Below are positions 5,898 to 57,216 of a stretch of DNA of 64,000 nt, piece by piece; position 1 is the first letter of the stretch, and every line of letters begins with the position of its first letter. A program made the translations under genes and the position numbers. The DNA comes from Rhabditophanes sp. KR3021. Taxonomy: Eukaryota; Nematoda; Chromadorea; Rhabditida; Alloionematidae. Below the pieces are notes generated by a model. It saw only the letters and a program-made list of their open reading frames with translations, ran no database searches and had not been told where the DNA came from. Location: assembly GCA_963281155.1 (NCBI GenBank), contig CAUJLY010000004.1, forward strand, positions 5,518,001 through 5,582,000, given 5' to 3'.

Positions 5898-7534
5898 TTA
5901 TTGCTTCTTTCTAGAGGCGATACGGGCATCACGTTCTTCAGCAATGGTGAGTTTGATTCCTTTTCCGCTTGGAAGGGAGATCAAAGGAGTGGTTCCTTTT
6001 CCAATAACGAAAACGTTGGAAGCTCTGAAATTGAAATTATAAGAATTATTCTTAGGAAGCTGAAAATAAATTTATTAGAGATGGACTTTCGTGATATCTT
6101 AATTTCATCACAAGCCAGCTCGAGGTCAAACAAACCGTTGGTGGGAAGTTATGCCGACCAGGCCCCCACCTTCACTAATCTTTTATAATAAGACTTTTTG
6201 GCATACAAATGGATTGCCACTTGACGCTGACTTTTGAAGCCATTTCGTAATAAAGAAACTAATTCAAAATCAGTTCGATTAAGAACCTATTTTGAGGAAA
6301 TGATAATTTTAAAATGGAACAATAAATTGCCTGGTAGCAAAAGCTTTTCCGGTGTTGTCCTTGATGTGAACAATATCGAAGGAACCTGGATGTCTTTCTC
6401 TGTGTCCGATGATTCCAACACGTCCTGTATTTCTTCCTCCGGTGATCATGCAAAGATTTCCGGCATCGAACTTGATGAAGTCGGTGATTTTTCCGGTTTC
6501 AACATCAATGATGGCCTAAAACATTAATAAATAAATAAAAGAAATTTTTAAATAGTTTTTGTAACTCAAGAAAATGATGAGTTTTTTAAAACAAAACATC
6601 TTAGCAGTTTTGGTGCACACTAGTTCAAAAAAAATTAACCAAAGAAAATAACCTTTCAAAAATTGCTTTTGAAGAAGGTTTCATGGCAGTAACTAGACAA
6701 TTAACTACCGGAGAGAAACTTCAAATTAAGAAAGATGTCAGATTTATCAAGAAGCGCCTTAACCTTTCAGGTTTTGGTATGTTCAAATTATCAGATGGAA
6801 CACCTATGTCATCTTCTCAATACGATGACGCAACAAGGAATCGAGATTTAACTGTAAATGCATTTAAGCTCATTAACATAATCAGAAGATATGTTTTTGA
6901 CAATGCTCATCTAATAGCCGGTAATTATTTATTGGAATCAATTCTAATAGATGGAGCAACCTTAAAGTTGATCAAGTCTTGTATGAATTTCATGGCAAAG
7001 GCTCTCAATATAAATAATTGTCTACCCTTATAACTTTTGAATTTTTTTTAAACTTACGGTGTCCTCATTTTTGACATGTGGATCTGGGTAACGGATACTA
7101 CGGCCGTCGTGGGTTGATAACATAGGTACACCCTTTGGTCCCATGTAGACACTCTTTACCTTGACAAGCTTGATGTTTCCTTCTTGCTTGGTAATTCTGT
7201 GGGTAGTGTATCTTCCTTTAACATCATAGAGAAGTCTGAAAGTTTCATTGGTCTTTTCAAGGGTGATAACATCCATGAATCCTGCTGGGTACTTGATGTC
7301 AGTTCTGACCTTTCCGTCAACCTTGACCATGCGTTCTTTGCAGATAGCACGGGCATCATTGTAGCAGAGAGCGTACTTCAAACGGTTTCTAAGGAACAAA
7401 ACCAATGGAAGAGACTCACGGAGCTTGTGTGGTCCAGCAGTTGGACGTGGAGCAAAAACTCCTCCGAGTTTGTCGAGCATCCAGTGCTTTGGGGCAGCAA
7501 TACGCTTAAGATGATGCTTGGGTCCGCGAACCAT
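5898..7534 (-). CDS. rps-4: 40S ribosomal protein S4 (eS4)
   Basis: Small-subunit ribosomal protein. Exons: 7534-7058, 6515-6331, 6024-5898, giving 262 codons plus stop (human RPS4X is 263 residues). The family signature is unmistakable: start [22 protein letters not shown], an S4 RNA-binding segment around RNRLKYAL, a KOW-like region at [10 protein letters not shown], and an end reading [17 protein letters not shown]. The start lies 16 bases after tgtcttttcag, a clear spliced-leader acceptor. Intron 1 (6516-7057, 542 nt) contains an antisense coding relic. Intron 2 (6025-6330) begins with GC instead of GT and contains a GC-rich, hairpin-forming patch. Possibly first gene of an operon with the 351-aa gene downstream. 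Confidence 0.97.
6135..6235 (-). ncRNA. Possible structured RNA (snoRNA-like) in rps-4 intron 2
   Basis: Within a GC-AG intron of rps-4, two perfect short stems stand out in otherwise AT-rich sequence: tggca/tgcca (6199-6203 with 6215-6219) and ggtggg/cccacc (6140-6145 with 6165-6170). On the host strand an A-rich linker with aaaaga separates them. Ribosomal-protein introns commonly host snoRNAs, and two hairpins around an ANANNA-like linker is the H/ACA layout. I did not find a convincing ACA tail, so this is only a candidate. Confidence 0.2.
6683..7033 (+). pseudogene. Antisense coding relic in rps-4 intron 1 (116 aa)
   Basis: A 116-codon open frame (ATG 6683 to TAA 7031-7033) lies entirely inside rps-4 intron 1 on the opposite strand, ending about 24 bases from the host splice donor. 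It is not a shadow of rps-4, because no host exon overlaps it. It is recognisably paralogous to frames in RCL1 intron 3. Both carry IKK(R/H)L followed by a FKLSDG/LKLSDE segment, and both carry a [11 protein letters not shown] / NVFDNKHLIAS segment. This copy is open but short relative to the RCL1 relic, so it is probably a truncated fragment; it could still be expressed. I recognise no domain. Confidence 0.6.
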
Positions 7535-8336
7535 TTTTTATTTAATCCCACTGAAAAGACACAAATTAATATTTGAAGAATTAAAATGAAGTTAAAGTAG
7601 AAGAATCCGATATATTCAAGAAGATGTCAAACATAAGTGAATGAATTAAAATATTTTTAAATTGAAAGTGGGCCGTACACGACTTTCCAACTGATGTGTA
7701 GAAAAATGTTGTAGGAGACAACGAGAAGTTCAAAAAAGAGGTTGGTGCAAAATGTCCTGGAAAAAACATGTCGAAGCAATGTCATTCCAACTAACCAAAT
7801 AGCTGCGTGTCAGTCAGGATAAACAATTTATTTTTATGGATCTCATAAAGTTATTTGTATAAATAAACTATTTTGGAATAATTATAAAATGACTAATTGT
7901 TAAGTCCATTAAAATTTGATTGAAGGGCTAAAAGTTAAATATTGGGAGTATGTTAGGGTTACAAGTCTATTAGGATAATTATTACACGAACAAGTATCGA
8001 CATAAAGGTCCTATAATCAGAATATGCACCCATATCACATTTATTTGAACATACCTCATTTGCATCTGTAAATAATCATTCTATCTCCTGTTACAAACTC
8101 CATTGAGTAAAATAAATCACTAGCTTAAAGTTCTCTGTTTGTTACACGCGAAAGTTAGTTTGATAGTGTTGTTGCCACGTATTATTAGTTCACTGTGTAC
8201 TTTTATAGATTTTGACGTTGCATTATTCGTTTATTTGATCCCAAATGTATTTTACGAACTAATAGTTTTTTGTATTTAATCAATTAATAGTTTTTGTATT
8301 TCTTGAACTAACAAAATTATATTTTTAGTTGTTACA
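7535..8336. other. Divergent intergenic region between rps-4 and the TM9SF gene
   Basis: About 800 bases between two divergently transcribed housekeeping genes. It should contain both promoters. The only elements I can point to are the two probable trans-splice acceptors at its ends (tgtcttttcag before rps-4 and atttttag before the TM9SF start). Confidence 0.5.
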
Positions 8337-11300
8337 ATGCTTAGGGTGGATATTTTATCCATTTCATTGATATTTTGTTATTGCATTGCTATAAATGAGT
8401 CATTTTATTTGCCCGGACTAAATCCGGTGAATTTTTGTGAATTGAAGGACGCAAAAGCTAACTGCCCAGTAAGTAAAATAATAGAATCAGATGTATAGTA
8501 TTTATTACATATATTTTAGAACAATGTAACCTTGTTTGTGAACAAGCTAGACTCTGAGCAATCAGTTATTCCTTACGAATATCACTCTTTCGACTTCTGC
8601 ATTGGGTCAGAAGAGGATTCGCCTGTTGAAAACTTAGGGCAAATACTTTGGGGAGAAAGAATCAGAGCTAGTCCATACCGCTTATCTTTTAAAGAGGAAA
8701 AGACATGTGAAAAATTATGTACCAAGTCATACAAATCTTCAAATAATGATGATATGGCGAAGTTGAAACTTTTACAAAAGGGAATGAAATTTAATTATCA
8801 ACATCACTGGATTATTGATAATATGCCTATTAGTTTTTGCTACCCGAATTCCCAGGACCAGAACATTTGCACAAGTGGTTATCACCCAATGGGATGCTAC
8901 GTTACACCTCAAGGCAAACAGAAAGATGCGTGTGTACTTGATGCTAAATATAAAGACCCCGACAGCCATTACATTTTTAATCATGTTGATATAGAAGTTG
9001 AATATAGGGATATGACTCATGATCCCAATTTCTTGGAAGACAAAATCGGAGGTAGGATTATCCACATTAAGATTTTCCCAAGAAGTATTAAGCACAATAG
9101 TGAAAAGGAACTAAACTGTGGGCCAAATGCACCACCACTTGCTTTGAAGAATGGACCTGGCGATTCTGAGATAGTTTACACTTATTCCGTAAAATGGTCT
9201 TTAACAAATGTAAAGTGGAATAGTAGATGGGATAGCTTACTGAACTCATCAGCAAGGTAACACAATTATATCTTTAATGTTTAATAACGTAAATTATATA
9301 GAAACTTGAATGTCCAATGGATTAGTATAATGAATTCGATTATAATTGTTCTATTTCTCTCAGGAATGGTGGGCATGATTTTGATGCGCACATTGCATAG
9401 AGATATCATCAGATACAATCAATTTGACAACGAGGAAGATGCCCACGAAGAATTCGGATGGAAATTATTACATGCCAATGTATTCAGGCCCCCAAAGCAA
9501 GTTATGTTTTTGGCCGTATTTGTAGGAAGTGGGTCCCAAATTTTGTTGTCTTCAGCGGTCACAATTTTATTTGCTTGCCTTGGCTTTTTGTCACCGGCAA
9601 ATCGAGGAAGTTTGATGACATTTGCTCTTGTATTTTATGCAATCTTCGGCATCGCTAGTGGATACGTTTCAGCAAGAGTATTTAAAACTCTCAAAGGAGT
9701 TGCATGGAAAACAAATATACTACTTACATCTTTTTTCATACCGGGTTTGAACTAATTCTAAAGTAACTAATCTTTTTTTTATTTTAGGTGAGTACTGGAG
9801 ACAATAGTTTTGGGTCGAATACCAAAAAAAGTTTATTAGAACAAAAATAAACATCAAAAATGAAAGAGATAGGACTATAGATGATTATTAGCATCCAAAA
9901 TGTCTTGAGAGATTAGCTTAGTGACCTCGTCATTTCTCTCAGGAAACATCTGGTATACAATTTTAAGAGAGGGATTGCCAGAGTCCTAGTTGGTATTTTC
10001 ATCTCTCAAGTAGTCGATCAAGATTGATTCAATCTTGGCAGCGAGTTTTTCTGTACCATAAGACTTATACAAAACTATCATTTCTTGATTTGAATCAAAG
10101 ACTTTTTCATGGCTTCTTCCTTGCCAGTAAAGACCTTATCCAATTCAACTGATTTATTTTATTCAGACATGTGACTTAACATCCTTAAGGTAATATGTGG
10201 TATAGTCTTGCCTACATATAGTACATGTTTCTTTGCATCTTCAGCAGATATGAGGTCAGATGAACAATGTCTGGATTGATCATGATGTAAATGTCACACG
10301 TTATTTTGCCCACATTCAAGTCGTCAAGTTCATTCTTAATGGACTCAGCATCTCTATTAGAATTGAATTCTTCTGCTTCTGAAAGAAATCCTACACAATT
10401 TCTAAATCTGAAGTGCTTTTTGAGACGAAAGATATCGTTTGCAGCAATGACACTGATAGTCGTTTCTTCAGTAGAATAGTCATCATAATAACCAACGGGA
10501 CTAGGTATTTCAATTTTTTTTATCATCTTTATTAATAATACGCTGCATAAAGTACTTGCCTAATTCCTTAATAGATTTTGACGGAAAGAGGTTGAGTACA
10601 TTGTCCGTAACTGTTCCGACTTCAAGATTGGTTTTGTTATTTGTGCCAGCAATCAAACAACGTTCCATGATTTCAGCCATTCTCTTTGAGACTCCATCCA
10701 AATAGAAAACAGTCACAACTTTCTTGGATTGCTGAAGTTTCTAGTTTTGGCTCTAGAAGCTTCATCTTTATGTTGAAGAAATCTGCCATCCTTGTCATCG
10801 GTCATTCCATAATAATAACCTTCTGTTTCTCCCTTCTTCATAAAACAATAGACGGTATATTCTCCATTCAAAGCACTTTCTCCTGTTTCAACTCTGGTTA
10901 TTATTACTGAATTGTAATTCTTGGCAGCTAAAATGTCTGAACGTGACACATAAGCGACTTCAGGTAGAGAATGTTCATCTCTACTTAGTGCTACCGATAA
11001 TTCTTCTAAATTTATTATTAATATGTAATTTGATAGTTGTTTAACTTACCGACTTCCATTAAGTCATCCTGTTCATCATCTTCCTCACTTTTAACTTCAG
11101 CCTGCTCTGAAAAAGAATAGTTAATAAGTTGATAAATCTTAAAAACATCCTCTTTCAACAAAAGTTATACTTCTCCCAAACGGGATACTCACCTCAGTCT
11201 TAACCAGTTTTCGTGGCTTCGCTTCAATGCTAACTTGTCTTAAAACTCGATCCACAGTTTCAGCGTCATTTGTGGTTGTCTTTCTTTTCCGAGATTGGTC

Positions 11301-13660
11301 AGCCATTTAGATCGAATAACACCAATAAGAGTGCGATGTTGGGCAACTAAAATTAATGAGTAACTAAATAAAGACTTAAAAATGGTGACACATAAATGCC
11401 TTTCAACTATATTCATATCTTAAATGTTCAAAGTATTAAAGAATAGTTGGTGTTGGGTTGAGTGAACTTATTGCTGATGCCACTCTCCCTTAAATCTCCC
11501 TTTTGACCCTCAGTCATAACATAGATAAGAAACTTTATTAAACTCAAATAATGACTGATTTTGTATCAAAATCATCATCTTAAATATATACAAAATCATA
11601 ATATAAAATTATTGATGACGATATAAACTGAATTCATAAGTGCAAATAATAAAGTATATTCAAATTATACAACAGTTGGTCACTGTAGTTCAAACACTTA
11701 TTAAAAAATATAAAAGTGGTAATCTCCAACAGATAAATTACTTTAATGCCGACCCTAATAACAATTCATTTCAGGGATTCTATTTTCAATCTTCTTCGTC
11801 ACCAATTTGATGCTTTGGGCTAAGGGAAGTTCGGCTGGTAAGTTAACAAGCTAAATTTAAGGAACAGTAAAAGGTTAAAATAAAATGTTTTACTTCAAAA
11901 ATTATTAGGGTTAGAATTAAAAGCTTAATTAAAATGTATTATTTAAGTGACAAGTGGTGTACATTTGAAAATTTACCTATCATAAGTGCTATGAGTGGTC
12001 ATATTCTTTTCTTCTTCCGTAACAGGAATTACTTCATCATCTCTGCCAACCATTTTATTCAACAAATGCATAAATGGTTATATTTTGGCAATCTTATTAG
12101 TGTGAAGATTTTTGATGAAGTTCGATCTTTCCTCCACAGTTGATTCTTTTGTCATGGCGAATTTGTTCTTAAACATAATAAATTTAATAGAAAAAACATA
12201 TCTTCCAACAAATCACTTTAATCGTAAGCACATTTTGTTGCCAAGTTGAGATTCTTTACATAAGTTATTCCAGCAACAAATTTTGGTTGAAATAAAGAAG
12301 AGAATGTTGATCTTCCCAAGATCTTTCCCCTTATCCACAAGATCATTCCTCCATCCCCTCCCTTGAGCAGAGAAGATTGTTCCTTCAGACGAGATCTTGT
12401 TTCAGCTATTGCTTCCTCGATTGTCAAAGGTTGGAATCTTTTCTTTGATGTTGGAGCACCTTCAGAATCAAAAGCTGGTCTCTTGAAAAATTTGTTTATT
12501 GAAACTGAAAATAAACAGGAGCAATTAAAATGTGATCATTATATTGTAAATAAACATTATATAATTAGAATATAATAATGATGTATGCAATGTTGGGTAA
12601 ACATATGCTAATTATACAATAAATATTTGCAAGGTTACTACAATTTGATAACAAAAAAGTTATAATAATAAGTGCGAGGCTATTAAATCATCCTACTAAC
12701 ACATACAAATATTAGTTGGTTTATTAAGAAAAAGAAGTCACCATTTAAAGGTAGATCAACTTGATTTTCCACGAAAAGAACAATGAAGTCGTTTCAAGAT
12801 TTTATTAGCTACTTTCTTATTATGCGCCAAATAACAATTGAACCATTTTTTTAATTAATACTTTATTCCATTTAAAAAAGTAATCAAATTCAATTTAAAA
12901 ACAAATGTATATAAATATAATTAGCATTCATTTAATTGATGCATATAAATAATTTGATTTGTTGCAGCTGTGCCATTCGGTACATTGATCGCTCTATTAT
13001 CTCTATGGCTACTTGTTTCGACTCCATTAACTCTCATTGGAGCAATCTTTGGATTCAAAAAACCACCATTCCATCCCCCTGTGCGCACACATCAAATACC
13101 TCGTCAAATTCCTGAACAATCATTTTACACCAAACCTTTACCTGGAATATTGTAAGTAAAAAATTATAACGAGCTTTAATTATCGAATATTTTCAGAATG
13201 GGGTCTATCTTACCATTTGGGTGTATATTCATTCAACTCTTTTTCATATTAAACTCTCTATGGGCAAATCAAATTTATTATCTTTATGGATTCTTGTTAC
13301 TCGTGTATTTAATTTTAATCGTAACATGCTCCTTAACGACGATACTCTTGACATATTTCCATTTGTGCTCAGAAGACTACAGGTAATATCAACACTCACA
13401 CCACTTTTTTAATATATTCATTTTACAGATGGGCCTGGAGAAGTTTCTTGACGTCAGGATTCACGGCAGGATATTTGTTCTTATACTGCGTGTATTTCTT
13501 TAATTCCAAATTAGCTATCACTGGTATCGTTTCAACAATTCTTTATTTCAGTTACACAGCGATATTTGTGTTTATGTTTTTCCTTATGACCGGAACAATT
13601 GGATACATTTCAACTTATTACTTCATTCATAAAATATACTCAAGCATCAAAGTTGATTAG
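8337..13660 (+). CDS. Nonaspanin, TM9SF2/4-type transmembrane protein
   Basis: Nine-spanning membrane protein of the endosome/Golgi system. Exons: 8337-8468, 8520-9256, 9302-9744, 11775-11837, 12968-13151, 13197-13382, 13429-13660, giving 658 codons plus stop, close to human TM9SF2 (663). Residues 1-20 are a signal peptide, followed by the family sequence FYLPGLNPVNFC. A long lumenal domain (CNN..., YEYHSFDFC) precedes nine membrane segments carrying hallmark strings RTLHRDIIRYN, IPRQIPEQSFYTKPLPG and YFHLCSEDYRWAWRSFLTSG. The C-terminus, SSIKVD, is the conserved KxD retrieval signal. Introns 3 (2,030 nt) and 4 (1,130 nt) are far longer than the others (about 45 nt) and each contains antisense coding relics. 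A run of aataaa signals follows the stop. Confidence 0.95.
9875..11306 (-). pseudogene. GIY-YIG nuclease-like gene relic in TM9SF intron 3, antisense
   Basis: A multi-exon coding relic opposite to its host. It starts MADQSRKRKTTT (ATG 11306), has its own short introns (donor gtgagt near 11195, acceptor ttttcag near 11108; donor gtaagt near 11050, acceptor aatttag near 11006) and an acidic linker. It then enters a GIY-YIG-like core: YTVYCFMKKG, YYYGMTDDKDGRFLQHKDEA, and downstream AEIMERCLIAG, where the Glu fits the catalytic position. It is broken by a one-base frameshift near 10717, another at the A-run near 10518-10526, further loss near 10200, and an in-frame TAG near 9994. The last about 85 codons (LYWQGRSHEK onward to 9875) remain readable. 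GIY-YIG domains occur in homing endonucleases and Penelope-like elements; I see no reverse transcriptase. Confidence 0.65.
11950..12504 (-). pseudogene. Second antisense coding relic, TM9SF intron 4
   Basis: Two readable pieces on the strand opposite the host. The upstream piece begins after a ttttcag acceptor at 12505 and reads FFKRPAFDSEGAPTSKKRF, then IEEAIAETRSRLKEQSSLL, ending at a stop at 12218-12220. The downstream piece (about 12155-11950) contains VGRDDEVIPVTEEEKN. This resembles [19 protein letters not shown] at the start of the relic in the ALDH intron, which links the two. The basic SKKRF patch plus acidic linker is also the layout of the relic in intron 3. No nuclease motif survives here. 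Probably a truncated, decayed member of the same group. Confidence 0.45.
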
Positions 13661-13879: not shown

Positions 13880-15899
13880 ATGGATATAGAATATAAAGTC
13901 AAAGCCTACCGCTTCGTTGCCTATTCGGCAGTTACATTCTCTGTCGTAGCTGTCCTTTCAGTTTGCATTACTCTGCCATTGGTCTGGAACTTCATGTCTA
14001 ATGTACGTATGCAAATGAATAATGAAATTGCATTCTGCAAGGGTTCGGCTAAAGACATTTGGACTGATATTGCCCAATTGAAAGAAGCCCCGGAATCATT
14101 TAATCGTACTAGTAGACAAGCTGGATATGGCGAGGGAGCTGCAAGTCCTGTTGAATCATCTTCCAAAGCAGCCGGGAAAAGTTGTAGTAGTTGCTGCAAA
14201 CCTGGAGCACCTGGACCTGCTGGAGCTAACGGCAAACCTGGTAGACCAGGCAGACCTGGTAGGCAAATGTATAGACCACAGTGATAATAAATTTACAGGC
14301 ACACCCGGGTTCCCAGGCAGACCAGGAAAGCTCTCTGCTTCAAACGTTCCTTGTGAGATGGTTTCACCACCACCATGTCAAACTTGTCCTCAGGGAGTTG
14401 CGTATGTTTATTTCCAATCATTATGATAACCATTTCAGTGGTTCACCAGGACCAATAGGACCAGCTGGTGATGCAGGAATCGATGGCTTACCAGGTGGAG
14501 TCGATTTTAAAGATATTTATTAAGAAATATGACTAAAATCTGGTGGGAATTACATCTTTGAGCTCAAAAATTTTATCAATTAAAAGTTGTCCAAGCAATT
14601 TGGCATTGATAAAATCTTCCAAAGTCCAACCATTAAAAGGTTTCTTGACAATTCTTGGGTCCAGGAACAAGTAATCATATGGAAGGCTTTTGGCATTAAC
14701 TTCATTGATGTCTGGCCAGATGCCAGTCAGAGTTTTCATTGCATCAAAGTTTTTGTTGAACTTCAGCACTTCTTTTAATATCTCCTCGCATCTCCTTTCT
14801 CGGTAATGATCCGATAATGCTCCAAAACTGGACTGAACTCCATAGCATCATTTGCAGCAAATTTCGACAGAATGACCATCGTCTTCATGCTTCTTTTTGT
14901 CTTTTTTCGAATTAAACACATATAGATTCCTGAGGTACAAATGAAAGATACTTAGGGTTTAAAGACTTTATTACAATCAGGAATCAAGAGATAAAAGATA
15001 ACTATAGAATGGCAAGATGCTTATATTGAGGAAATAAGAATATGAGGTGACAAGCACAAAAGATACAATAAAATCAGCTATAAGCATTACAATTGCCCAA
15101 TAATTGTAGGATTATAGCAAGTATGTCTTGCTAAACGTTTAGGGTGACCAAGCTTTACTTAAAGTTCAAATTATTGTCATGACATTGAGTAGCATTAACT
15201 AATGTTTAAATTTAAAGAGCCTTACAGAAAAGATTGATATGTATAGGATTTCACCAAAAAATCTATTCACAAAATACATATATTAACAATATTCCGGTAT
15301 TTCAGGTTCACCGGGAACCCCAGGAACACCAGGATCTACTGGCATCAAAGGTTAGTTGATTAATAGCAAATACATATATAATCACAAATATTAAGGACCA
15401 CCTGGCGAGCCTGGACAAAAGGGGTAAGTTGCTATTTTCAAAAAAATTATTTAATTTGTAGACCTACTGGACCTGTTGGAGAAACCGGAACACCAGCTAT
15501 CAGCGAGGCCTTAGTTCCAGGAGACGTTGGTCAACCAGGTTAGAATTTAACTACAAATTGATAAAATAATCTTTTAAGGTGAAATGGGACCAGCTGGAAG
15601 TTCAGGTAATTATATTTTTTAAAAGAGCAAGCTTAATGTATTTAAAATTTAGGAGCCCCCGGAGCACCAGGACCAGAAGGTTCGGTAGGAGCTCCTGGTC
15701 CAAAGGGAAACACAGGCCCAGATGGGTTACCAGGAACTGATGGAAATCAAGGAAAGGCTGGAGCTCCCGGACCACCAGGATCACCCGGTCAAAATGGAAT
15801 CTGCCCTAAATACTGCAGTCTCGATGGAGGAATCTTCTATGCGTAAGTAAAAGTATACGTTCAAGTAATCTATTTTCTAGTGATGGAACCCGTCGTTAA
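13880..15899 (+). CDS. Cuticle collagen
   Basis: Structural protein of the nematode exoskeleton, secreted by the hypodermis. Nine exons: 13880-14258, 14299-14401, 14439-14494, 15306-15350, 15396-15423, 15462-15538, 15579-15605, 15653-15842, 15881-15899, giving 307 codons plus stop. The N-terminal block is the nematode cuticle collagen N domain ([19 protein letters not shown] membrane/signal segment, then [11 protein letters not shown]). Cys-rich spacers ([16 protein letters not shown]) alternate with Gly-X-Y tracts. The C-terminus reads [19 protein letters not shown], the typical family ending. Intron 3 (811 nt) is exceptional and holds an antisense coding relic. Nine exons is many for this family. 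Confidence 0.93.
14533..14930 (-). pseudogene. Antisense coding relic in the collagen's intron 3
   Basis: Inside collagen intron 3, on the opposite strand, an exon-like segment begins after a ctcag acceptor (at 14931) and continues to a stop at 14533. It is readable in pieces separated by frameshifts near 14850-14890 and near 14770: [20 protein letters not shown], then [20 protein letters not shown], then a 78-codon frame with [20 protein letters not shown] and [21 protein letters not shown] recognise no domain. Position, orientation and state of decay match the other intron relics, but I could not align it confidently with any of them. Confidence 0.5.
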
Positions 15900-32380: not shown

Positions 32381-35186
32381 CTATAAGACGACACGATTCA
32401 AATTAGCATATCCAACACCAATGCAGCATGCCAATAACTTTTCTTTTGAGCCAAGATTTGCATCATGATCCTCGTGGTATTTTGATTTTTGAAAGTCAAA
32501 TGTTATGCCGAAGAAATCTTTCAAATGACGCAAACCATAAACAGTGTATTGCGATAATGGTCCTTGAAGATATTTGGAGGCATTTTTATCGGTCAAAGCC
32601 ATAAACGTTGTTGCTAAGTATTGAGCAGTCGTGTCAAGTGCCCCAGCACAATAAATCTCGTCCAATAATCTTTCGGCAGCTAAATTTCCAAGATCTTCTG
32701 GAATTATTGGGTTCTTATTATCTAATCCCTTTTGGCTCATCGCTTCTCCACTAAAACAATTCCATAATCATTAAACATAAATAAAGAGTTTTTTATGTAA
32801 GTTCTAAAACAATATAATTTCGGCGTCTTTTTGAGTCGTATCCGTTAGATAAAAAATAACGATTAGCCAAAACAAAATTAATTAAGGAGTTGAAGAGTAT
32901 AATTAAATTATTCAAGATTTTTGGGTGAAAAAGAGGCAAAAGATCGAAGTCATTGAGGTATCTCATGATGATGAAGAGCCTGAAGAGATTATTCAAAGCA
33001 ATAACTTAGTGAAAAAGATTGGTCAAATTATATCCGAAACTGACGGTGATACTCAACATGCTACTGTTGAAGAAATGCTATAGAAGAATCTTTTGAGGCT
33101 ATTCCTTCACCTGAAGATGGAACCGAACTCATGAGACCTTCGGACAATGTTGATTCTGATGAGGAAGAACCTGATGAAGAAGCTTTTGCAGAAAGACAAT
33201 GACTAGCTATCTTTGAAGGAATTACCCACCAAGTTCCGTTTGAAGAAAAGAATCAATTAAGGAATAATTTCACTACCATAAAAAAGCATTTGCCAGTAAA
33301 TGATTTTTCAATCCTCAAATTATCAGACGAAAGTTTCAGGTCTGTAGGATAATTCAAACATGCAATTAGTGACCACAAAATGTCTGATCAGATATTTGAG
33401 TACATGAAAATAATTTAAAAAAATGTTTTCGACAATAAACATCTTATTGCGAGTAAGTTTAATTTTATTGTATGTTAATAACCTTTGATTATTTAGGAGC
33501 TACTAGTGTTTTCGATGAAAGTAGAAGAAACGACCCTAAATATCGTCAAAGCTACATCAAACATTTGAAGAGTAAATTGCTTAAAGACATTCTGTCTTTC
33601 GGCCAGTCTATGAAAGCATTGTAAAACCCTAAAATGCCAATGCAAGAGACACTTGTATACCAACTCTTAATCACCCTACTAGGCCATTTTGTAGAGAGAA
33701 ACGACATTACTGGACACAGCGTGTGTAATGGAAGGAATAATGGAATGATATTGTATAATTGTAGGAAGTTAGAGACAACAAGACCATATATGTTTAAAGA
33801 TCTCTGCCAAGATGACTCCTGTTCAACTAGAGGTGTCACTAATTTAGAATTACTCTCAATCTCCTCTGCCTTTAAGGCTTGTTTCATGTGTTCTAACGAA
33901 AATGTCAAAAACACTATGTGGCTAATCGCTAAAAGAACACAATGTGGAGCTGGATGCCTAACTGTGGCTAGGTATCAATATTACATGATGCCATAAAACT
34001 ATTTTTTGCTAGAATTCAAATTAAATAGAGAGAAACTATGTTGATATAGAGAAACAATATCCTGGTCTGGTTAGACGTTATACACCTTTACGATCTGATT
34101 TCATTATTGGCGCAGATTTTGAATTGCAACAAAGCTATGACAAAAGAATGAATATTATCTAGAAAATAATCTTCATCTGATTAGAATCTCCTTTTCAAGA
34201 AGCAAGGATATGACATCCATATTGAAAAGTGTTAAAGAGATGGACTACTGGGTTTAAAAGTGGTGAAGCTTTGAAAGAACTTTACGGCATAGACGTCCAA
34301 TATCAATAATTGTATTTTTAGTTTGTATTATTTTAATAAACTCACTGATAAAAGACACCATCCGTGGTTTCCGCAGTCAAAAATATTCCATATCCGTTCT
34401 CTTTTCCACCTGCATCTCCCTTGCGGTTATCTGATGTAACATAAACATCGGCAAAATAACCATGAAGCTTTTTCTTCGCAGCGTCAATCATTCTGTGGCC
34501 AAATACTTCATTTACACGACAGGTATAAGATAATCCTCTGATTTTGCAAATCTTTCCAACTCTTTCAATAGTAACTGGCCTCAAATTTTTGTTTACAGGT
34601 GATTTGAAAGTAACAACACCCCCTCCAAGTGGAAAGAATCCTCTTTGCAAAATCTGTAACAGTAATAATAAGTAATACACGATATAACCACTTACTTTAA
34701 TTTCCAAATTTTCGTCATTTAGGATGAATTTCTTAAAAACTGGTAACCAAGTCGCTCTAATAGCATCGCAACTTAATTCATCCGCCTTGTTAGTGATTCC
34801 CTCAAATTTGACATTCAATGGTCTTTTGCAAAATGGCGCAATAGCTACTAATGGTTCCAAGAAATATGAGATACTTCTAGTCAAACCGCAATCAAACTTG
34901 AGACTTCCTCCAATTAAAATGCCAGGGGTAAAATCTATTACTGTACCACTTTGATTGATGTTTACTTTCATTCCATTTGTAATTTTCTCAAGCAATTTAA
35001 ACAAGGATGTTTCGAATTCTGCAAATGTAAAATTTAAAGTTTATTACTTATTTACTTACGTTTAACGCCAGGGTTTTCATCCTTTGTTCTGATGTCGACG
35101 AAGCGGACCCCTCTTCCACTCAACAAAGAGTACACCAACCTTTGGCGAAAAAAATTGACTCCAGAATATACTAATTCTTCAGACAT
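32381..35186 (-). CDS. rcl1: RNA 3'-terminal phosphate cyclase-like protein RCL1
   Basis: U3 snoRNP-associated factor needed for 18S rRNA processing, nucleolar. Exons 35186-35060, 35018-34696, 34653-34346, 32750-32381, giving 375 codons plus stop (human 373). Diagnostic strings are FRQRLVYSLLSGRGVRF, a TPGILIGGSLKFDC stretch, FFPLGGGVVTF, RIRG-like CKIRGLSYTCRV, and the C-terminal YLQGPLSQYTVYGLRHLK and CCIGVGYANLN. As in RCL1 orthologues, it is a cyclase-like fold rather than an RtcA enzyme. Intron 3 (1,595 nt) contains a coding relic on the opposite strand; the other introns are short. The gene is divergent from PMS2. Confidence 0.95.
32925..34308 (+). pseudogene. Antisense coding relic in RCL1 intron 3, paralogue of the rps-4 intron relic
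   Basis: A long but broken coding region opposite to its host. A basic start (VKKRQKIEVIEV) and an acidic stretch (DSDEEEPDEEAFAERQ) lead into VPFEEKNQLRNNF, IKKHLPVNDFSILKLSDES and NVFDNKHLIAS, which align with the frame in rps-4 intron 1. Next comes a cysteine-rich 120-codon frame (33634-33993) with GHSVCNGRNN, NCRKLETT, FKDLCQDDSCSTRG, CFMCSN and QCGAGC. A further piece reads YPGLVRRYTPLRSDFIIGAD, then SGEALKELYGIDVQYQ at the end. At least seven in-frame stops or frameshifts interrupt it. The LCQDDSC region resembles NLCTDEDC in the ALDH intron relic. Confidence 0.6.
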
Positions 35187-46765: not shown

Positions 46766-47516
46766 ATGATAAGACATTCACTATTAAATTACGAATATTG
46801 TGAGTGGCAAGACGATTCTAGCGACGAAGAGGAAGAAATCATTTACGTCCATACAGGCGGAGTTTGTCTTGATGACGGAACAGAAAAAGCTTGTGTAAGT
46901 TTAGGTAATCATATACATAATAATTATTTAGGCCGGAGTAGGTGTCTACTGGGAAAATAAAGATTACGAAAATATTGCAGAACCCTACAATGGATGTCAA
47001 ACCACGAAAGCAGCTGAATTGGCCGCTGCCATAATTGCTCTCGAGAGGTATTTGGAAAATGAGAAGGAAGGAATTTTAGTAATGACAAATTCCCAGTATA
47101 CAGTTGATTGCATGATTAAACATATTGATGATTGGCTTAAAAACGACTTTGTTAGAAGTGACGGGATCAAAATTGAAAACGAAAAGCTAATACGTGAACT
47201 GTACAGATTGACATGCGAAAGTGGTGCTGAATTCCATGTTACAAAAAACGGATATGACGAAGAAGGTGGTGATGAGGAAGAAAGTGATAATGAAGACATT
47301 GGTAGCGGAGAAGAAAACGATAAAGAAAATGACGCAGATGGAGATAATGCCCTTGGTGATCAAGGACAAAAAGTTGATGATGGTCAAGAACATAAACTTG
47401 TTGATGATCAAGAAAATAAAGATGATATCAGTGTCAAGGAAGACGGTAGTACCATTGCCGACAAACTCGCCTTAGAAGGTGCTTTGAAAAGAAGATTGAT
47501 TGTTTTTGGAGAATAA
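46766..47516 (+). CDS. RNase H-like fold protein, probably catalytically dead, acidic tail
   Basis: Exons 46766-46894 and 46932-47516, 237 codons plus stop. The fold order of RNase HI is visible: first strand IIYVHTGGVCLDDG, GVGVYWENKDYENIAEP, helix with TKAAELAAAIIALE, strand GILVMTNSQYTVDCM, then KHIDDWLKND. Active enzymes have YTDGSC and a TDS motif. Here the first Asp position is VHTGG and the second is TNS, leaving only the Glu. The protein therefore probably binds rather than cuts RNA/DNA hybrids. Residues about 155-220 are a very acidic tail (EEGGDEEESDNEDIGSGEEN). The stop is followed directly by an aataaa signal. Confidence 0.65.
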
Positions 47517-47693: not shown

Positions 47694-50600
47694 TTATGAG
47701 TTCTTTTGGTTAACCTTCATGGTCACGGTCTTGACTTCAGTGTAAGACGCCAAGGCATATTCTCCCTGAAAATATTAAAAAAGTCATTTTTAATTAGCTA
47801 TGGGAGGAATAAACGAACCAAATCTCTTCCTAATCCACTAGCCCCATAACCTCCGAAAGCTGCTGCTGGGCTGAAAACGTCATAGCAATTTACCTAAAAA
47901 TAGGAATATAAAATTGCATTAATTATTGTTTAAATGGGACCTTATGGTTTGTAATAAGACGTTATCACTACAAATCATAGAGATTCTATCTGAAATTAGA
48001 TACTTACCCAAACAGTTCCTGCGCGCATGTTGTTAGCGACTTCGAGAGCTTGATCAATCTAAATTAATGTGAATTAGCTCTTAGAGGTGAGTATTCAAAA
48101 ACGTACGTCCTTAGTGTAGACTCCTGCTGCCAAGCCGTAAATAGTATCGTTTGCCTTAGCGATGATATCCTTGGTGTCTTCGAATTTAATTATGCATGCA
48201 ACGGGACCAAAGATCTCTTCTTGAGCAATTCTCATGTCTGAAGTAACATCGGCAAAGACGGTTGGTTCAACAAAGCATCCCTTAGTTCCATACCGTTTTC
48301 CTCCTGTGACCAAGCGAGCTCCTTCTTTCTTCCCAATGTCGATGTACTTGAGGATAGTTTCAACTTGGTTGTTATCAATTTGGGGGCCTTGGTCAACAGA
48401 AGCATCAAAGGGATCTCCGAGCTTTCTTTTTTCAACAACTTCCTTGAATCTAGCTACGAATTTATCGTAGATTCCAGCTTGAACAAAGGTTCTTGATCCG
48501 GCGCTACAATATTCATTAGTTATGTATTCTAAGACAAAATCATTTTTAAGCGTAAAAATACTACCAACGAAATAGGAGACTTATGTCGCAAAAGTGAATT
48601 TTAAATAATATTACCATTATTGTTTTTTAAAATACAACAATTGGGCTAAAAGGTAATATTTTTCTTGAATAAGAATGTAAATTCACTTTTGTGACATAAA
48701 TCTACCGTGAGTATTATCCCTTTTTTAACCGAAAATATTATTAAAACTCAGTTTTGTGTTAATTATATTACCAACAGCATTGCCCCTGAAAAAGAGATGT
48801 TAGGATTAATTATTGTGCGAGAGTAAACATACTTGATTAAACATTATGGCATGTATACTGATATCAACGGCCTCATTAATTCCAGCATCGTCGGTGTTGA
48901 AAATGATCATTGGAGACTTTCCACCTAATTCAAGAGAAATTTTCTTCAAATTGCTTTTGGCGGCATCAGCCATGATAATTCTTCCGACATCAGTTGATCC
49001 AGTGAAAGCAATCTTATCAACGTCCATATGCTGAGAGAGGGCAGATCCAGCAGTGTGTCCAAATCCTGGCAGGATATTGATAACTCCATCTGGGAAGCCG
49101 GCTTCTTTTGAAAGTGCGGCAACATGAAGAGCAGTCAGTGGAGTTTGTTCAGCGACCTTAGATATGTTATCATTCACACACAAAATAACTTACCTTCATA
49201 ACAATGGTATTTCCCATGGCCTGAATGTTAATTATTACATGATTAATGATGTACGATAGTTTTTTAAAATCTTTTGTTAATTGAATTTGATTACTATTTT
49301 TAATTGGAATAAAATAAAATTGCATTGATAAACCATTTATGGGTATCGTAGGTGAAATTATTGGCAAAGAAGAGGATGACGGAGAAACTATTCCTGTAAC
49401 TGAAGAAGAAGAAAATGAAGATAACTTATGGATTAAATCTAAATATGTTTACAGATGCAAGGCAACTGGCCAATGCAGTGAAGGTCATTTCAGCAAAGGA
49501 ACAGCCGAGAGCTGAACAAAACATTTTTTCATTAGGCCATATTACACGTTGTTATTTTCGCAATGATGGAACATGATCTTGTAGCTTCTTGAAGACAAAG
49601 AGTCCCAATTGTATGTCAACTTATGTACTGATGAAGATTGTGGTGTTCGTAAAACCGAAAATGTAGTGTTAACCAAAGATTCCGAATATACTCCACGTCA
49701 GTCTAGTAAATAAGTGTGCATCAAATATGGAGTACATCATGTTAAAGTTGTAAGTAGCTTAGTTAATAGAAGGTTTGATTGCAACTTTTGAATGAAGAAT
49801 CCCGTTCTTCACGATGAAACAAAAGAATTCTCTATTGCTAAGTATGGGAAAGGATTAGGTCCGGAACAAATATTTCATGATTGTGGGGATAAGCTGGCTT
49901 TCAACTTTTTCGTGTCTCCAAACCTTTGCATCGAAGTTAACGGGCAACAGCATATTCAAGCTGCTGGTTTTGGCACGTTCTGGAAGAGTTTAAGCAGAGA
50001 CAGGCTGTCGACAGAATAAAAATTGAATATTGTCCTAAAACAAGCTATTCTCTCATTAGAATCGGACCCTATGAGTTTGCTAATATCGGCAAACATGTTG
50101 AGGAATTTACTAGTCTTTACGACAATTTAAATGAAGGAGAAAGATTCGAGAAGTTCTATGGCAAAGCATATCAACAGAAAACTACCCTACATATTCTCTT
50201 TGATTGCATCCTTAATACTCTTTTTAATTTATTTAGATCTAATAACGTAATAAAATAATATGTATTTTGATTAGCAACAGCTTACATATTTCAAGTCTCA
50301 CTTGAGGTATATAAACAAACGTCCTAAATATCTATATTTTTTAATTCAAGACTTACAACAGCTGGAGCTAATTTCCATATTTGCATCAAAAGGGAGAAAT
50401 TCCAAGGTGTGATACTTCCGACTACACCAATAGCCTCGTGTCTGCTGTAGGAAAAGTAATTTCCATCAATTGGGATTGTCTTTCCGGTGTATTTATCGGC
50501 ATACCTTCAAATTTGGACATTAGCTTGAGATATGTTAAAGAATAAAATAAATTGAATTACAGAATTATCGTTTATAGATAACGTTTTGTAAACAATGAAT

Positions 50601-51468: not shown

Positions 51469-52974
51469 TTACTTAACATTATTTTTGCTTCTTCTTTTGA
51501 CTTTTCCATTGACAATTGTTTGTGGTATCAACAAAGTTGACAAATCACAATCATCTGACTTTTTCTTAGCAGCAACTGGAGAACCAACTTGAGTTACCGA
51601 CTTCTTTACACTTATGAACAAACGGATAATTTTGTTGATAGGAAGAGGCCATTCGTACTCGTTTTCAACTCTTCCCACACTTCCACTTTCAAAAAACCAG
51701 CCTATAGAAGGGATTAACTTAGTTAAAATACTTAAATTTAATAAAAATACCTAGTGGAAACCAAAGGCGAACTCTTGAATCTGTATTTGTTAAATGGACC
51801 AAATTGTAAGCATAAGCGTGATAGTACAAGAACATTCTTGAGCTCAAGAAAAATGCGATCTAAAATGGAATATAAGTATGTTCGTTCAACTTCAAAACTA
51901 ACAGCAATGTCAATGGAGTAATGTTCATGGCCTAAAAGAATTTACAAAAATGAAACATGAAATTATGATACCACGAAATACAAGATGTAATTATCAAACT
52001 AGTTACCTGCTAAAATAAAGAAGATTGCAAAAAAGTTCAAAATCCAAGTCATCGTATGGAGCATATTCCAAGAAGCTGGGGTATATTCCGTAATAAATAG
52101 ATTCAGCAGGGTAATTGCACTGGTATGGCCACTAAAATTGGAATGTAAGTATGTTTGTCTTTTTTTTAAATTCTTGCCTAAATAAGTAGTCCCCGCATGT
52201 TCGGACATCGTTAACTGCCATTCCGAAGTTCGAAAATATCTTAAAGGCTTGTGCTAATTGGTCCTTCAAATTGTCGTGTTCCTTTTTCTTGCAATCCAGG
52301 TGCACTCCGGGAACTGATAATGATGTAATTAGCATAGTTACACATCTCAGTAAAAATACGGATCCAACAAGTGAAAACATTCTTCTTAATGCGATTACTC
52401 GTGACTTGTGGAAAATAAGCACAGTTACCCATATAGACATTAACAATATTGCAATGCATTCACTGGCTTCAAAGGCATAGGGGATCAAAGGAATGGCATC
52501 AAGGAACAGATCAGGCAGTGGCTTGTAAGTTTGCATATCGGGTACACGGGAATGGACAATAACCATAACAAATGCAGTAATAAATAAGACTATTGAGCAG
52601 TAAGCAAAAGAAATTGCCAACTTTAAAAATGACTTTAATTTTGTGTCTTCGCTCTCGACATGCCGAATGATGTCCTCTCTTGAAAGCATATGAATTTCCT
52701 CTAGAACCCCACCGTTTGACGTTTTTATTCTACTAAGAGTTGACAGTTCATCCACCGACTCAAAGTTAAAATGATTACCATTAGACACCCTTTCTTGATG
52801 ATTAGCGATAATATGCAACTGAGAGGAAGGTGTTTGATAAACTTTTTCAACATGTGAGGAGTTTGATTTTTCGTTTAAAGAACTTATTGTTTCAAGTATT
52901 TGCCGGATCTCTCCGAGATATTGCCCCAATTCCTCCTTAACAACCTTTTGTATGTCTTCTTTCGTTAAAGACAT
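51469..52974 (-). CDS. sms: Sphingomyelin synthase
   Basis: Integral membrane enzyme that transfers phosphocholine from phosphatidylcholine to ceramide. Exons 52974-52178, 52131-52007, 51931-51903 (29 nt), 51859-51751, 51701-51469, 430 codons plus stop. The N-terminal 110 residues are soluble with coiled-coil tendency; six hydrophobic segments follow. The lipid phosphatase/transferase motifs are complete: CGDYLF plus SGHT (His 268) and HEHYSIDIA (His 311, Asp 315), which form the catalytic triad. Intron 1 begins with GC (TTTAG then gcaaga) and splits the Ser codon of the SGHT motif. The C-terminal tail is basic. Confidence 0.93.
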
Positions 52975-55402
52975 CTTATAGAAGACAATAATATAGAAAT
53001 AATTGAGAGTAATAGAATGAAATTTGAAGCTGTTGAATCACGTTAGCTTTGTTCCAACTACAATCTATACTAGACATTCACTTATTTAGTACTATACTTA
53101 CAACTATATTGTAATATTAAAAAAGTGTTATCAATTTTAATAATCTGTATGTGATATAACAAAAAATCGGATCCGTTTTAATTTTGCTTTATAAAAGCTT
53201 GTGAATATTTAAAATGAACTGCATCGAATTAGGAGTTAATGATAAAAACGACATTTCTTCAACCAGTTTTAATTCCTTCTCCCAAAATGGAGATAACATG
53301 ATGTATAACTGACTTGGAATCATTTTATTTAGTATATCAATTTTACAGATTATTACATTATTATACATTCTTCGTTTGACCGTCATAGATATTTCTGTCA
53401 AAAGAACGAGTTTTATCAAATTTATAACGAATAAAGAAGTTCTGACTGAATATTCCAACAAAAAATAACACCTGCGTTAAGTGTCTTCAGATAAATAGCA
53501 ACTTTAGCTGCACAATTTACAATTTTCGGCCAAAATAAATATGTATACAGAATATGGAAAATATAAAAAATTGAAATTGTCAAATATTTGTTTTATATAT
53601 CGTTGACTTTATGAAATAGTAAAATGTCATGAGCAAATTATTGTACCATCTTTTGTTGCAAACTACTTCGAGGACAATTAATTATTGTTGTACCTTTTAT
53701 ATCACTATATTATTATTGTTTTTCAACAATTAGAATTTTATTCTATTTACATACATTCAATTCGTCCATAAATTATATTTTTTGTTCTATTGAACTTTAA
53801 GAGTGTCAATTTCTACTCATACGACCCTACATATAGTACTTGTACCCAACCGATTATAAATAAGGTTAAAACTTGGTAAACTTTTATTTGATTGACTTTA
53901 AACTTGATTGAATTGTTTTAGATTGACTTTTAAACTTGCTTCAAGTTTATCAAAATGATCTAATGAATCAGTTTCGTAGTGCCTCAAAAACGAGGGTCGA
54001 AATTAAATTTTTTTGATTACTCATAATTTTTCGATATCAATAGCATGAGGTTTAAAAAGTGACGAGCTGGTCACCATTACAAGCTGATAAATGTTTCTGA
54101 GTCATCAACTTTTATTTTGGTACCGATGTTGATATTATAGTTGGTATTTTAAATATATTATTTATCAACGTCGGGTGGTGACTGTTTAAATATTAGAATT
54201 TAAATCACTATATATTCGATTTGGTGTCTCTGTTTATACTGCTCTATCATGGCTTAAACGGCAACCAAGGTATCGAGTGTTAATAGAAGGAATAGTTCTA
54301 TAAAGAGTAGGGCCTACTTTTGTTATTAATAAGTTCCTTTTTGCAATAATTTCTCTCTAAACTCTTCTCATGGTTGTCTTAGCAACGATAATAATTCTAT
54401 TTTTAGTGTTTTTTGAAAACAAAACTCACCATGAATCAAAATAATACTTATTTCAATAAATAAACAAAATCACAGCGATGTACGTTGACGACATTATATT
54501 AGCATAAAACATTTATTCTTTACTCATTTGTAACTTGCTCTTTATGACACAATTTAGCACAGCTAATGATTACTCAATCTCTGTTGAATTTTGTTAAAAA
54601 GTGAGTTTTATTTCCTCCAAAATTATTGTACTTGTCTTACTTATATCGTATTTAAAAATATATTGGGTGTATTTATTGAAAACTGCGCATATTCAATTTA
54701 ATAAGGATTATCTGATGGATACAATATGTATAACTATAAAAAGCGTTGATATTTAATATTAAAAAGTATTATATCAGCTGTGATCACAAAAAACGACCTA
54801 TATATGGCGAGTCCTTGTGGTTTTTCATCAACATATTTTTCTCCTCACGGTTGTCATTGTTAACATTTTTCGATATATTATATTTTCCAATGTGATTGTA
54901 TAAACATCATTTCTTTATAACATTTGAGGTTGAACTTAAACAGAATTGCTCATGTTAAGTTGAATCTAAAAAAGTGTTTGCTTATTTCATATTATTTAGC
55001 ATTTATTCGAAATATTTTTTATTTTGAGTGGGTAATTAAGATTTCCATACCATTGTTATTCAGTATTTTCGCTTGATTTAACATTTATATTGTTAAATGG
55101 TTTAAAAGCAATGAGATTATTTAAAATGAGCTTAATCAGTATATTGAACAAACAGTTACTTAAAGAATGTTTGAATGGTACTGACTTTATAAAATAACAT
55201 TTGACAATTGCTTTTTTATCTTGTAATATCACTTTTATTACCACAAATAAAAATAGTACAATAAATGTCTATTTTAATACATTTCATATATTTTCTTTAT
55301 TTTGATTGTACTTATTTAATTTTAACTTTACTCATTTAATTGCCTAACTGAAGCTTAGTTATTTGAATATTTTCCAGATAACAGTTTTTATATTTAACAA
55401 TC
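52975..55402. other. Long divergent intergenic region
   Basis: 2.4 kb between sphingomyelin synthase and syntaxin. A 90-codon minus-strand frame (53189-53461, with PFWEKELKLVEEMSFLSLTP) is the only candidate coding piece; it has no intron partner or domain and I do not call it. A ttttccag acceptor precedes the syntaxin start by about 25 bases. Confidence 0.4.
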
Positions 55403-57216
55403 ATGCCTAGAGATCGTTTGTCAGAATTTCGCCGCAAGGTAGATGATCCAACAAATGTGTTTGACTCCATCGATAGAAATCCTTCCATGGACATTGCTAT
55501 GGGTGAAAATTTATCAGCCCGAGAACAATTATTTAATCAAACGACTGAGGAAATATTGCAGTCTATAAGTGATTTAAAAGAACGTGTAGATTTGGTGGGT
55601 GTTTCTTTAATGCTTTAACTAATTTTAACTTCGTTTTAGGTAATTTAAAAGCGGCTAGGGATAATAAATAAAAAACGTTTATTTAAAAGGGGGCGAAAAT
55701 AGTACAAGTAGACAAAATATTAGTCAGTGATATGCTTTAAAGACGAATGTATTCTATTGAGAGTGATTTTTGATATTCGAGTTACAATTTCAGGATAAAC
55801 TCCATAATTCTGTTTGTAGTCAATTGGGCATTTATGGGCGACTAAAGCTTATCGCATCCTCGATTGCGATACCTTGAGTATATTTCTTGAAAGGGTAGAT
55901 AAATTTCACAAATCCAATTCTCTTCTGGACGTCAGACCAGCATATCCAATGAAATATACATAGCATGCGTCTTAAACCGTTTGATGGCCTTGCATCGAAC
56001 TCCCCAACTCAGCTTGAAACTCCTACGCACTTTGATTCGTTCTTTTCATCACGCACAACGTAGAAGTGAGTCGTTTCAGGTGACTCATCAGTGGCCTAAA
56101 AGAAGTATTTACTGTATTAGAATGTTTAAACTTACAGATAAATAATATGCAACTCCATCAACTTCTGGCCTCATTGTGGCACTTCGTCTTAACGGAACAC
56201 TTCTATCCAAATGGCCCATCTTTTTAGGGAGCTCATCGCCATTGGGAGCATCGTTTCTACCTCTCATAATTACTTGTCAAATTCAATAAAGTGTAAATAT
56301 GTACTTCCAAAGGACTAAGCTAATTAAACATTGAGCAAAAACGCTCTTTCAGTAATGTTTTCTTAAAACAACATTTTAGTCAGCTTTATTTTATAATATC
56401 AGTTAAAAGTTACTACGTTATACTAATGATCCCTTTCAGGTGAAAAGAAAGCAAACTGACATTTTGGCCCAAACTGTGGTAGATTCTAGAGAAAAAGTAT
56501 GTTGTAAAATAAGCTTTTAACTAAATATTAAGTTATAGGAAGAATTGGAAAAGCTACTATTAGATATAAAAAACTCCATTAAACTTTTACGTCCACGAAT
56601 CAAGCGCATCGAAGCTGACTTGAAAGCAGAGGAATTAAATGGGACTATGCAAGCAAAGACAGGGGCTTTTTTGAGAATAAGAAGAAATCGTTGCGATTTG
56701 ATTAAAAAAAAGTTGAACGACGTCATAATAATATTTGGCGAAACTCAAGTTGATTATAAGAGTCGTGTTTCAAAGCGTGTTAAACGTCAATTGGATTTAG
56801 CTGGGGAACATTTGTCAGAAAATGATGTCAATAACATGCTTGAGTCAAACTCGCAGGAAATATTTTATAACAATGTTTCACCAATTTCACTAGCTGGAAG
56901 AATGGCTCTTGACGATGCTACATCTAGGCACAATGAGTTATTAAAATTAGAGCACAGTATCAAAGAATTACAAGATATTTTTGCGGACGTGACAGATTTG
57001 GTAGAATCCCAAAGTACGATGGTTGATAATATCGAGGCCAATATTGAATCAGCTGTAGATTACACTGCCGATGGTAGGATTAATGTAGTTCAAGCTGTTC
57101 GGCACAAAAAGGCAGCAATACGAAAAAAAATATACGTGATAGGAATTATTGTTCTGATTTTAATTATCCTGATTGTGCTTGCCATAGTTTTGGGAGTTGT
57201 CTTCGGAAAGAAGTAA
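55403..57216 (+). CDS. Syntaxin (Qa-SNARE, plasma-membrane type)
   Basis: Target-membrane SNARE for vesicle fusion. Exons 55403-55594, 56440-56496, 56539-57216, 308 codons plus stop. The N-terminal half has the helical Habc region (KLLLDIKNSIKLLRPRIKRI). The SNARE helix runs from LLKLEHSIKELQDIFADV through LVESQSTMVDNIEANIE, with the zero-layer Gln in VESQ. A basic juxtamembrane patch (RHKKAAIRKK) and a C-terminal anchor of about 22 hydrophobic residues ending FGKK complete the architecture. Spacing and motifs fit the syntaxin-1 group. Intron 1 (845 nt) is the only long one and carries an antisense relic. A polyadenylation signal is near 57310. Confidence 0.93.
55720..56267 (-). pseudogene. 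Antisense coding relic in syntaxin intron 1
   Basis: Opposite to its host, a frame starts at an ATG (56267) with a basic leader (MRGRNDAPNGDELPKKMGH, RSVPLRRSATMRP). It crosses a 41-nt intron of its own (gtaagt ... cttttag), then continues ATDESPETTHFYVVRDEKNE and VGVSS before an in-frame TGA. Further readable pieces are KRIGFVKFIYPFKKYTQG and CPIDYKQNYGVYPEIVTRIS, with a final stop at 55720. The FYVVRD...VGVS stretch sits where HFLRDSVTKKVLYTG is found in the 57.7-58.7 kb relic, hinting at a worn GIY-YIG core. Confidence in that last point is low. Confidence 0.5.

Follow-up and report, generated by a model that had tools for sequence, protein, structure and literature searches.

Long introns with antisense endonuclease relics as probable homing introns in the nuclear genome of the nematode Rhabditophanes sp. 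KR3021

We propose that a group of long introns in the nematode Rhabditophanes sp. KR3021 are probably spliceosomal homing introns ('shintrons') of an animal nuclear genome, which carry endonuclease genes on the strand opposite the host gene and have been amplified in the manner of introners. The introns lie in a 64,000-nucleotide stretch of contig 4 (bases 5518001-5582000; the window), and their relatives come from the same genome (44.8 Mb in six contigs, label G000), whose loci are numbered L001-L086; L087 is a locus of a viral contig. The analysis rests on this one genome, and some host names were given by eye. The original prediction had placed former coding sequence, antisense to the host, in seven introns of the window, those of the rps-4, TM9SF (two introns), collagen, RCL1, ALDH and syntaxin genes, and it is present in all seven (7/7) when read on the strand opposite the host, with stops, frame changes or truncation in each. 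The prediction had also read these relics as a repeated invasion of introns by nuclease genes. Nuclease-bearing selfish sequences, their repeated spread and the decay of many copies are retained from that reading; the invasion of existing introns is not, because similarity between copies runs to the splice sites, which indicates that the introns travelled as units.

The intron as the repeated unit

It is well supported by the alignments that the repeated unit is the whole intron, from splice site to splice site, and that it has spread as such. Intron 3 of TM9SF (9745..11774, plus strand), a predicted mobile unit of the GIY-YIG family, was compared with its flanks by BLASTN against 15 loci of that family turned to the host strand, and aligns with introns of other genes at 68-88% identity over the main pieces. 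On the donor side the alignments end at 9744, 9745 and 9749 (three loci; the intron starts at 9745) and on the acceptor side at 11769, 11774, 11775 and 11775 (four loci; the intron ends at 11774), with one weak match ending at 11786 and the remaining alignments inside the unit. Intron 4 of the same gene (11838..12967, plus strand; VSR family) shows similarity from 11829, 11847 and 11847 (L036, L037 and L038) to 12961-12990 in seven loci, six of which end within 7 nucleotides (nt) of 12967. For the ALDH intron (intron 4 in the original prediction; 49221..50356, minus strand; VSR family) the ends fall at 49217-49227 in seven loci and at 50339, 50344 and 50381 in three, for RCL1 intron 3 (32751..34345, minus strand; rps-4/VSR domain family) at 34339, 34351, 34365 and, in one locus, 32744, and for the syntaxin intron (predicted as intron 1; 55595..56439, plus strand; a small family) similarity starts at 55603 (L071 and L072) and ends at 56431 (L071) and 56440 (L064). 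In these last four putative mobile units the nearest alignment end lies at most 12 nt inside each splice site, and the alignments at 11829, 12990, 50381 and 34365 overshoot it. Both splice sites are approached within 12 nt in five of the seven window introns. The collagen intron 3 (14495..15305, plus strand), a probable mobile unit, is approached on the donor side only, with similarity from 14509 (L066) and 14522 (L065), and its acceptor side is not reached. For rps-4 intron 1 (6516..7057, minus strand; rps-4/VSR domain family), whose splice sites are taken from the host frame, BLASTN similarity is confined to 6712-6933, and it is a comparison of 70-nt ends that supports its extent as a unit to the splice sites: its first and last 70 nt resemble those of RCL1 (Smith-Waterman scores 30 and 30) and its last 70 nt those of L051 (33).

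That comparison covered 26 introns, 24 of them with a donor side, at a score threshold of at least 30. The last 70 intron nt reach the threshold in 23 of 70 within-family pairs, in 0 of 227 between-family pairs and in 0 of 28 pairs labelled rps-4 versus VSR (p 1.3e-13), and the 70 nt of the following exon in 0 of 70 within-family pairs. The first 70 nt reach it in 6/55 within-family pairs against 0/193 between families and 0/28 for rps-4 versus VSR (p 0.046). Several introns of the genome are thereby similar in different genes, with a similarity that ends before the exons, as in introners.

These boundaries bear directly on two alternatives. The introns could have been copied by segmental duplication or gene conversion with the nuclease genes as passengers, and a dlg-like gene provides one such case in which an exon is included (L030, L032 and L033 compared with L040; the copy in the dlg-like gene on contig C4 is frame-shifted). 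We restrict segmental duplication to this case because flanking exon similarity is absent in the other compared sets, which stop near the splice sites and have unlike exon flanks, and as a general explanation it is highly improbable. Alternatively, ordinary nested genes of an expanding and decaying family could have landed in pre-existing introns. Nested genes are often antisense, and the present families are multicopy and often decayed, both of which would suit this explanation; the approach of similarity to both splice sites, the uninterrupted TM9SF and ALDH paralogues described below and the absence of sense copies among those decided speak against it. We hold it to be improbable and count it among the least likely candidates, as the boundary data largely contradict it.

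The host genes remain whole. The introns in question have GT-AG ends in protein genes, and their predicted removal restores the host frame, as described for shintrons. Exons were joined across 25 introns, and 19 of the 20 joined peptides submitted to Pfam (TM9SF with both introns removed) match a family, a single match spanning the junction in 13 of the 20: ATP synthase beta, GMPPB-like, phospholipid ATPase, M18, calpain III, carboxylesterase, M3, FerB, PAN, TM9SF (two junctions; EMP70, 1.9e-65), ALDH (Aldedh, 9.8e-45), RCL1 (RTC_insert, 8.8e-26) and RPS4 (Ribosomal_S4e, 2.8e-29). The joined atp-2-like peptide aligns with ATP synthase beta of PDB entry 9b0x with no gap at the junction, and the joined 83-aa peptide of the syntaxin host has no Pfam match, its name having been given by eye. 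Neither intron site is interrupted in the two TM9SF paralogues (2/2; open frames of 520 and 605 codons), and the ALDH site is uninterrupted in 10 of 12 other ALDH places. Intron phase is 1 in 16 of the 25 joined introns, a count that includes L046 with its doubtful donor and has no genome-wide intron control, and these phase-1 introns often fall directly behind the first G of a codon for Gly, Asp or Ala.

The donor side has a structure of its own. In TM9SF intron 3, L011 and L017 a weak GTTTRAAC is followed by about 43 nt that end in TTTTAG, with GTRAGT directly after, and L026 has GTAAGAAC in place of GTTTRAAC with the same abutment of TTTTAG and donor. In the window the donor segment occupies 9745..9787 (plus strand, 43 nt), and its abutment (9745-9798: TTTTAG/GTGAGT) looks like a recursive splice site, a function it may serve. 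Several units also hold TTTATT close to the donor, which is AATAAA on the nuclease strand (without a chance comparison).

Relics, families and open frames

Read by eye, the TM9SF intron 3 relic (minus strand, approximately 9884..11306) retains a start codon, GT-AG introns between its 5' exons and a GIY-YIG-like core within 10713-11027, after which the frame changes; its match to Pfam GIY-YIG lies below the cut-off (E 0.015). The ALDH relic (49330..50258, plus strand) is a VSR-type homing-endonuclease relic with a VSR-like core at 49792-50016, and it matches phrog_9084 'homing endonuclease' at 5.3e-4 with a 75-aa piece and at 1e-9 when read through with X. The prediction of one GIY-YIG-like and one VSR-like relic agrees with these two. 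The TM9SF intron 4 relic (minus strand, approximately 11945..12520; frames by eye) appears to be the N-terminal part of a VSR-type protein, with DNA matches to L032, L036, L038 and L044. The RCL1 relic (plus strand, approximately 32900..34300) is frame-shifted and matches L051 and L055. The rps-4 relic (6683..7033, plus strand) and the collagen relic (14533..14847, minus strand) each consist of one open frame, of 116 and 104 codons respectively, and cover part of the family protein. The former, for which Pfam and PHROG searches gave no match, is one predicted domain that elsewhere adjoins VSR-type matches, an accessory domain only; L084, a relative of the latter, has a GIY-YIG-like core by eye and a PHROG match of 0.0032 to a family of unknown function. 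No homing-endonuclease family was matched in PHROGs by the pieces searched from the relics of rps-4, TM9SF intron 3, collagen and RCL1. The syntaxin relic (minus strand, 55800..56267, approximate end) has a readable exon 1 with a GT-AG intron and then stops. The ends of the syntaxin intron (56354-56440 and 55662-55743) resemble L064, a collagen-type unit in an LRP-like gene, a likeness hinting that the syntaxin family may belong with the collagen/GIY group.

Five relics served as queries against the genome (those of TM9SF intron 3, ALDH, rps-4, collagen and syntaxin, the TM9SF intron 4 and RCL1 relics not being queries), and they match 85, 44, 13, 48 and 4 places, respectively, their own places included (two of the four for syntaxin). 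These 194 places form 156 clusters when same-strand matches at most 3 kb apart are merged, six of them in the window; the counts are lower bounds, and the places are query matches, not each verified as intronic. The relics searched are multicopy in unrelated hosts, so they are not ordinary single-copy nested genes. Stops lie inside 33 of the 44 VSR matches, and matches of the other families are often single exons. By sequence likeness most copies fall into two families, GIY-YIG-like and zinc-ribbon/VSR-like. The relics had been thought not all to share detectable similarity; this needs correction, as there are several cross-matches among their families: the rps-4 query matches the RCL1 intron (33221-33463), the rps-4-type domain adjoins VSR-type matches on the same strand in three clusters, the TM9SF intron 4 and ALDH introns align with the same VSR-type loci, and one cluster holds both collagen-type and GIY-type matches. 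The clusters are unevenly distributed, the largest contig, C6 (11.2 Mb), holding 6 of the 156, a density of 0.54 per Mb where the other contigs have 1.7-6.4 (p 1.5e-12 in a binomial test by length); C6 is perhaps the X chromosome. The best GIY-YIG match of the genome is L001 (G000:C3:396736-396945; 1.4e-13), which we presume may be an ordinary host gene, SLX1-like.

Some copies retain long open frames (counted stop to stop; 'VSR-like' is a label given by eye). The frame in L015 has 509 codons and lies antisense in a ryanodine-receptor-like gene, between exons for the MIR and RIH domains. It contains two GIY-YIG-like stretches separated by a zinc-finger-like segment, and its Pfam GIY-YIG match is above the cut-off. 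L015 and the ALDH relic each place a homing-family endonuclease in an intron. The VSR-family frames of L030 (323 codons) and L032 (342 codons) match DUF4379 in Pfam, and in PHROGs L030 matches phrog_559 'HNH endonuclease' (6.4e-24), phrog_9084 (3.8e-18) and phrog_7140 'intron encoded nuclease' (2e-8). The viral locus L087 encodes a 318-aa relative of the VSR-type protein (46% identity in the matched part) that shares the DDCRGKKNRLPFD stretch; a scan of viral contigs with the GIY-YIG protein found no relative. PDB searches gave three matches for L032, all at E 0.066 or worse, and none for the VSR profile.

Mismatches by codon position (first/second/third) are 309/334/470 in the L011 set (nine pairs), 93/97/183 in the L015 set (five pairs long enough of eight given) and 321/329/443 in the L030 set (ten pairs). 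This third-position excess (pooled p 1.1e-9, 4.1e-10 and 3.5e-6 for the L011, L015 and L030 sets, values that overstate independence as the pairs share one reference) speaks for a coding constraint that would have acted during spread. The close pairs L011-L013 and L030-L032 show no third-position excess.

Orientation relative to the host

The predicted antisense bias holds in a sample of 52 copies outside the window, in which no sense copy in a host intron was found among those that could be decided. The sample consists of the 64 loci from the relic searches, minus nine window places and seven overlapping or near-duplicate loci, giving 48, plus four further places; the coding model was trained on the window and a few loci, which is a weak point. 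A non-nuclease coding flank of at least 17 bits is present in 33 of the 48, and among these 27 are antisense only (eight on both sides), three same-strand only and three mixed. Inspection by eye assigns the six exceptions to sequence of the nuclease itself (L019, L032, L051 and L072) or to a neighbouring gene (L020 and L037), and the host of L037 is Nramp, antisense to the relic. The 15 loci lacking a clear flank were judged by weaker segments and joins, which indicate an antisense host in L025, L026, L027, L044, L045, L052 and L071. L030 is next to dlg-like pieces in antisense orientation; in L023, L055, L058 and L060 the antisense signal is limited to weak segments, and no decision was reached for L017, L035 and L038. 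Among the further places, L084 and L086 have antisense coding sequence on both sides and L085 on one.

An intron finder run on both strands of the 52 loci scores the antisense strand higher in 33, the sense strand higher in 13 and both equally in six. Scores of at least 30 occur in 27 antisense and six sense cases (L015, L020, L026, L032, L037 and L063); the four sense joins inspected consist of nuclease exons (L026 and L032) or of neighbouring genes (L020 and L037).

The fourth further place, L083, carries a 276-codon GIY-family-related frame (1379-2206, plus strand) between neighbours that are by eye EMC7-like and IK/RED-like. Its best antisense join (40.6) leaves out one of the host's exons and appears spurious, and the copy has possibly escaped or lies in a 5'-UTR intron.

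The window has nematode content: nuclear-receptor genes account for three of the seven frames scanned, and the collagen carries the nematode cuticle collagen domain Col_cuticle_N (Pfam, 7.5e-18). A frame at 46932-47516 (plus strand), outside the finding, combines an RNase H domain (1.6e-10) with an acidic tail. The exact 22-nt SL1 pattern was searched for and not found.

A model for homing introns in an animal nucleus

We propose a model in which the unit extends from the host 5' splice site to the host 3' splice site and would be removed from the host mRNA by the spliceosome; one of its strands would supply the splice sites, the other a self-contained gene. The opposite strand would encode a DNA endonuclease, GIY-YIG-like or zinc-ribbon/VSR-like, that cuts intron-less target alleles, and repair of the break from the intron-bearing copy would constitute homing, a process we infer to be driven by cleavage. 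Rare off-target cuts may seed new genes, and after fixation the nuclease gene would decay. Antisense orientation would keep the host transcript free of the promoter, introns and polyadenylation signal that belong to the nuclease gene, and an antisense rule explained by the sparing of host splicing and polyadenylation would fit this anatomy.

Several observations weigh against this model. Agreement is weaker at the donor than at the acceptor side (3 of 15 loci for TM9SF intron 3, and p 0.046 versus 1.3e-13 in the 70-nt comparison), some boundaries in that comparison come from the intron finder alone, and those of L011 are one base off. No shared target sequence between hosts was noticed by eye, and ectopic spread is left unexplained. 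The third-position excess reaches p<0.05 in only 4/9 (L011), 4/5 (L015) and 4/10 (L030) single pairs; the open VSR copies are found within fragments of a dlg-like PDZ gene that were duplicated on C5 and C2 (the C2 copies 8 kb apart), and two of these copies, which share a large identical block, have a Ka/Ks of 0.71 over 317 codons. The C2H2 match of L015 and the DUF2726 match of L030 are below the cut-off, and no nuclease domain was found in the syntaxin relic or its family. Finally, the intron finder also gives sense-strand joins, and L083 lies between two divergent genes, not in a host intron.

An alternative is introner-type transposition, in which the units are still whole introns and the nuclease is a low-specificity transposition enzyme or cargo, with no allelic homing. 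The 156 clusters in many hosts with no common target noticed, and the 88% identity of L011 and L013 in different hosts, are in its favour, and we regard it as a rather unlikely explanation. Against it, the protein family matches homing-endonuclease kinds, inverted termini were not noticed (by eye only, with no systematic test), and DDE_3, the sole transposase family searched, has eight places, a point qualified by the 37 reverse-transcriptase places in the genome. Nine of these are equal in score (135.9 bits), and each lies in an open frame of 718-1377 codons, which suggests that a retroelement was active recently. Known introners are mainly non-autonomous transposons, and the worm introns differ from them in carrying antisense endonuclease genes. 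The two are alike in that similar introns occur in different genes with unlike exons, as introners are described in excerpts of two papers (PMC12768974, PMC9169325).

The homing model has its closest counterpart in the shintrons of mirusviruses, spliceosomal GT-AG introns that encode GIY-YIG, VSR-like and other endonucleases and for which homing is proposed; they occur in genes of protist viruses, with 64.1% located in virion morphogenesis genes, and their targeting is gene-specific (PMC12768974). The excerpts of that paper state an apparent lack of shintron equivalents in eukaryote genomes and contain no statement on the orientation of the viral nuclease genes. The worm introns likewise have GT-AG ends and GIY-YIG-like and VSR-like nuclease genes, and unlike the viral ones they lie in an animal nucleus, in many unrelated cellular genes, antisense, multicopy and often decayed. 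Phage zinc-ribbon/VSR-like homing endonucleases (phrog_9084, phrog_559 and phrog_7140) share the protein family and the DDCRGKKNRLPFD stretch; the viral L087 gene looks freestanding by its open reading frame neighbours, whereas the worm gene is inside a spliceosomal intron. Likeness to the group I intron endonucleases (TIGR01453) is limited to a weak L015 match below the cut-off (E 0.0024), and the worm host intron differs in that its GT-AG ends point to a spliceosomal intron. A search of the open-licence PubMed Central literature showed one direct precedent, the mirusvirus paper (PMC12768974); preprints lie outside this scope, and earlier reports are possible. The novelty lies in the host, an animal nucleus, in the many unrelated cellular genes reached, in the antisense rule and in the fossil record.

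We consider evenly balanced the fuller proposition that natural homing drives, travelling as spliceosomal introns, have colonised the nuclear genome of an animal again and again, with two unrelated nuclease superfamilies converging on the niche of an antisense gene in a self-made intron, at perhaps more than 100 new intron sites and with some long frames still open. If true, natural homing-type elements would exist in the nuclear genes of an animal, and a direct, protein-based mechanism would be available for the long-debated origin of new spliceosomal introns. Engineered gene drives would also gain a counterpart in nature, one whose many copies form a fossil record.

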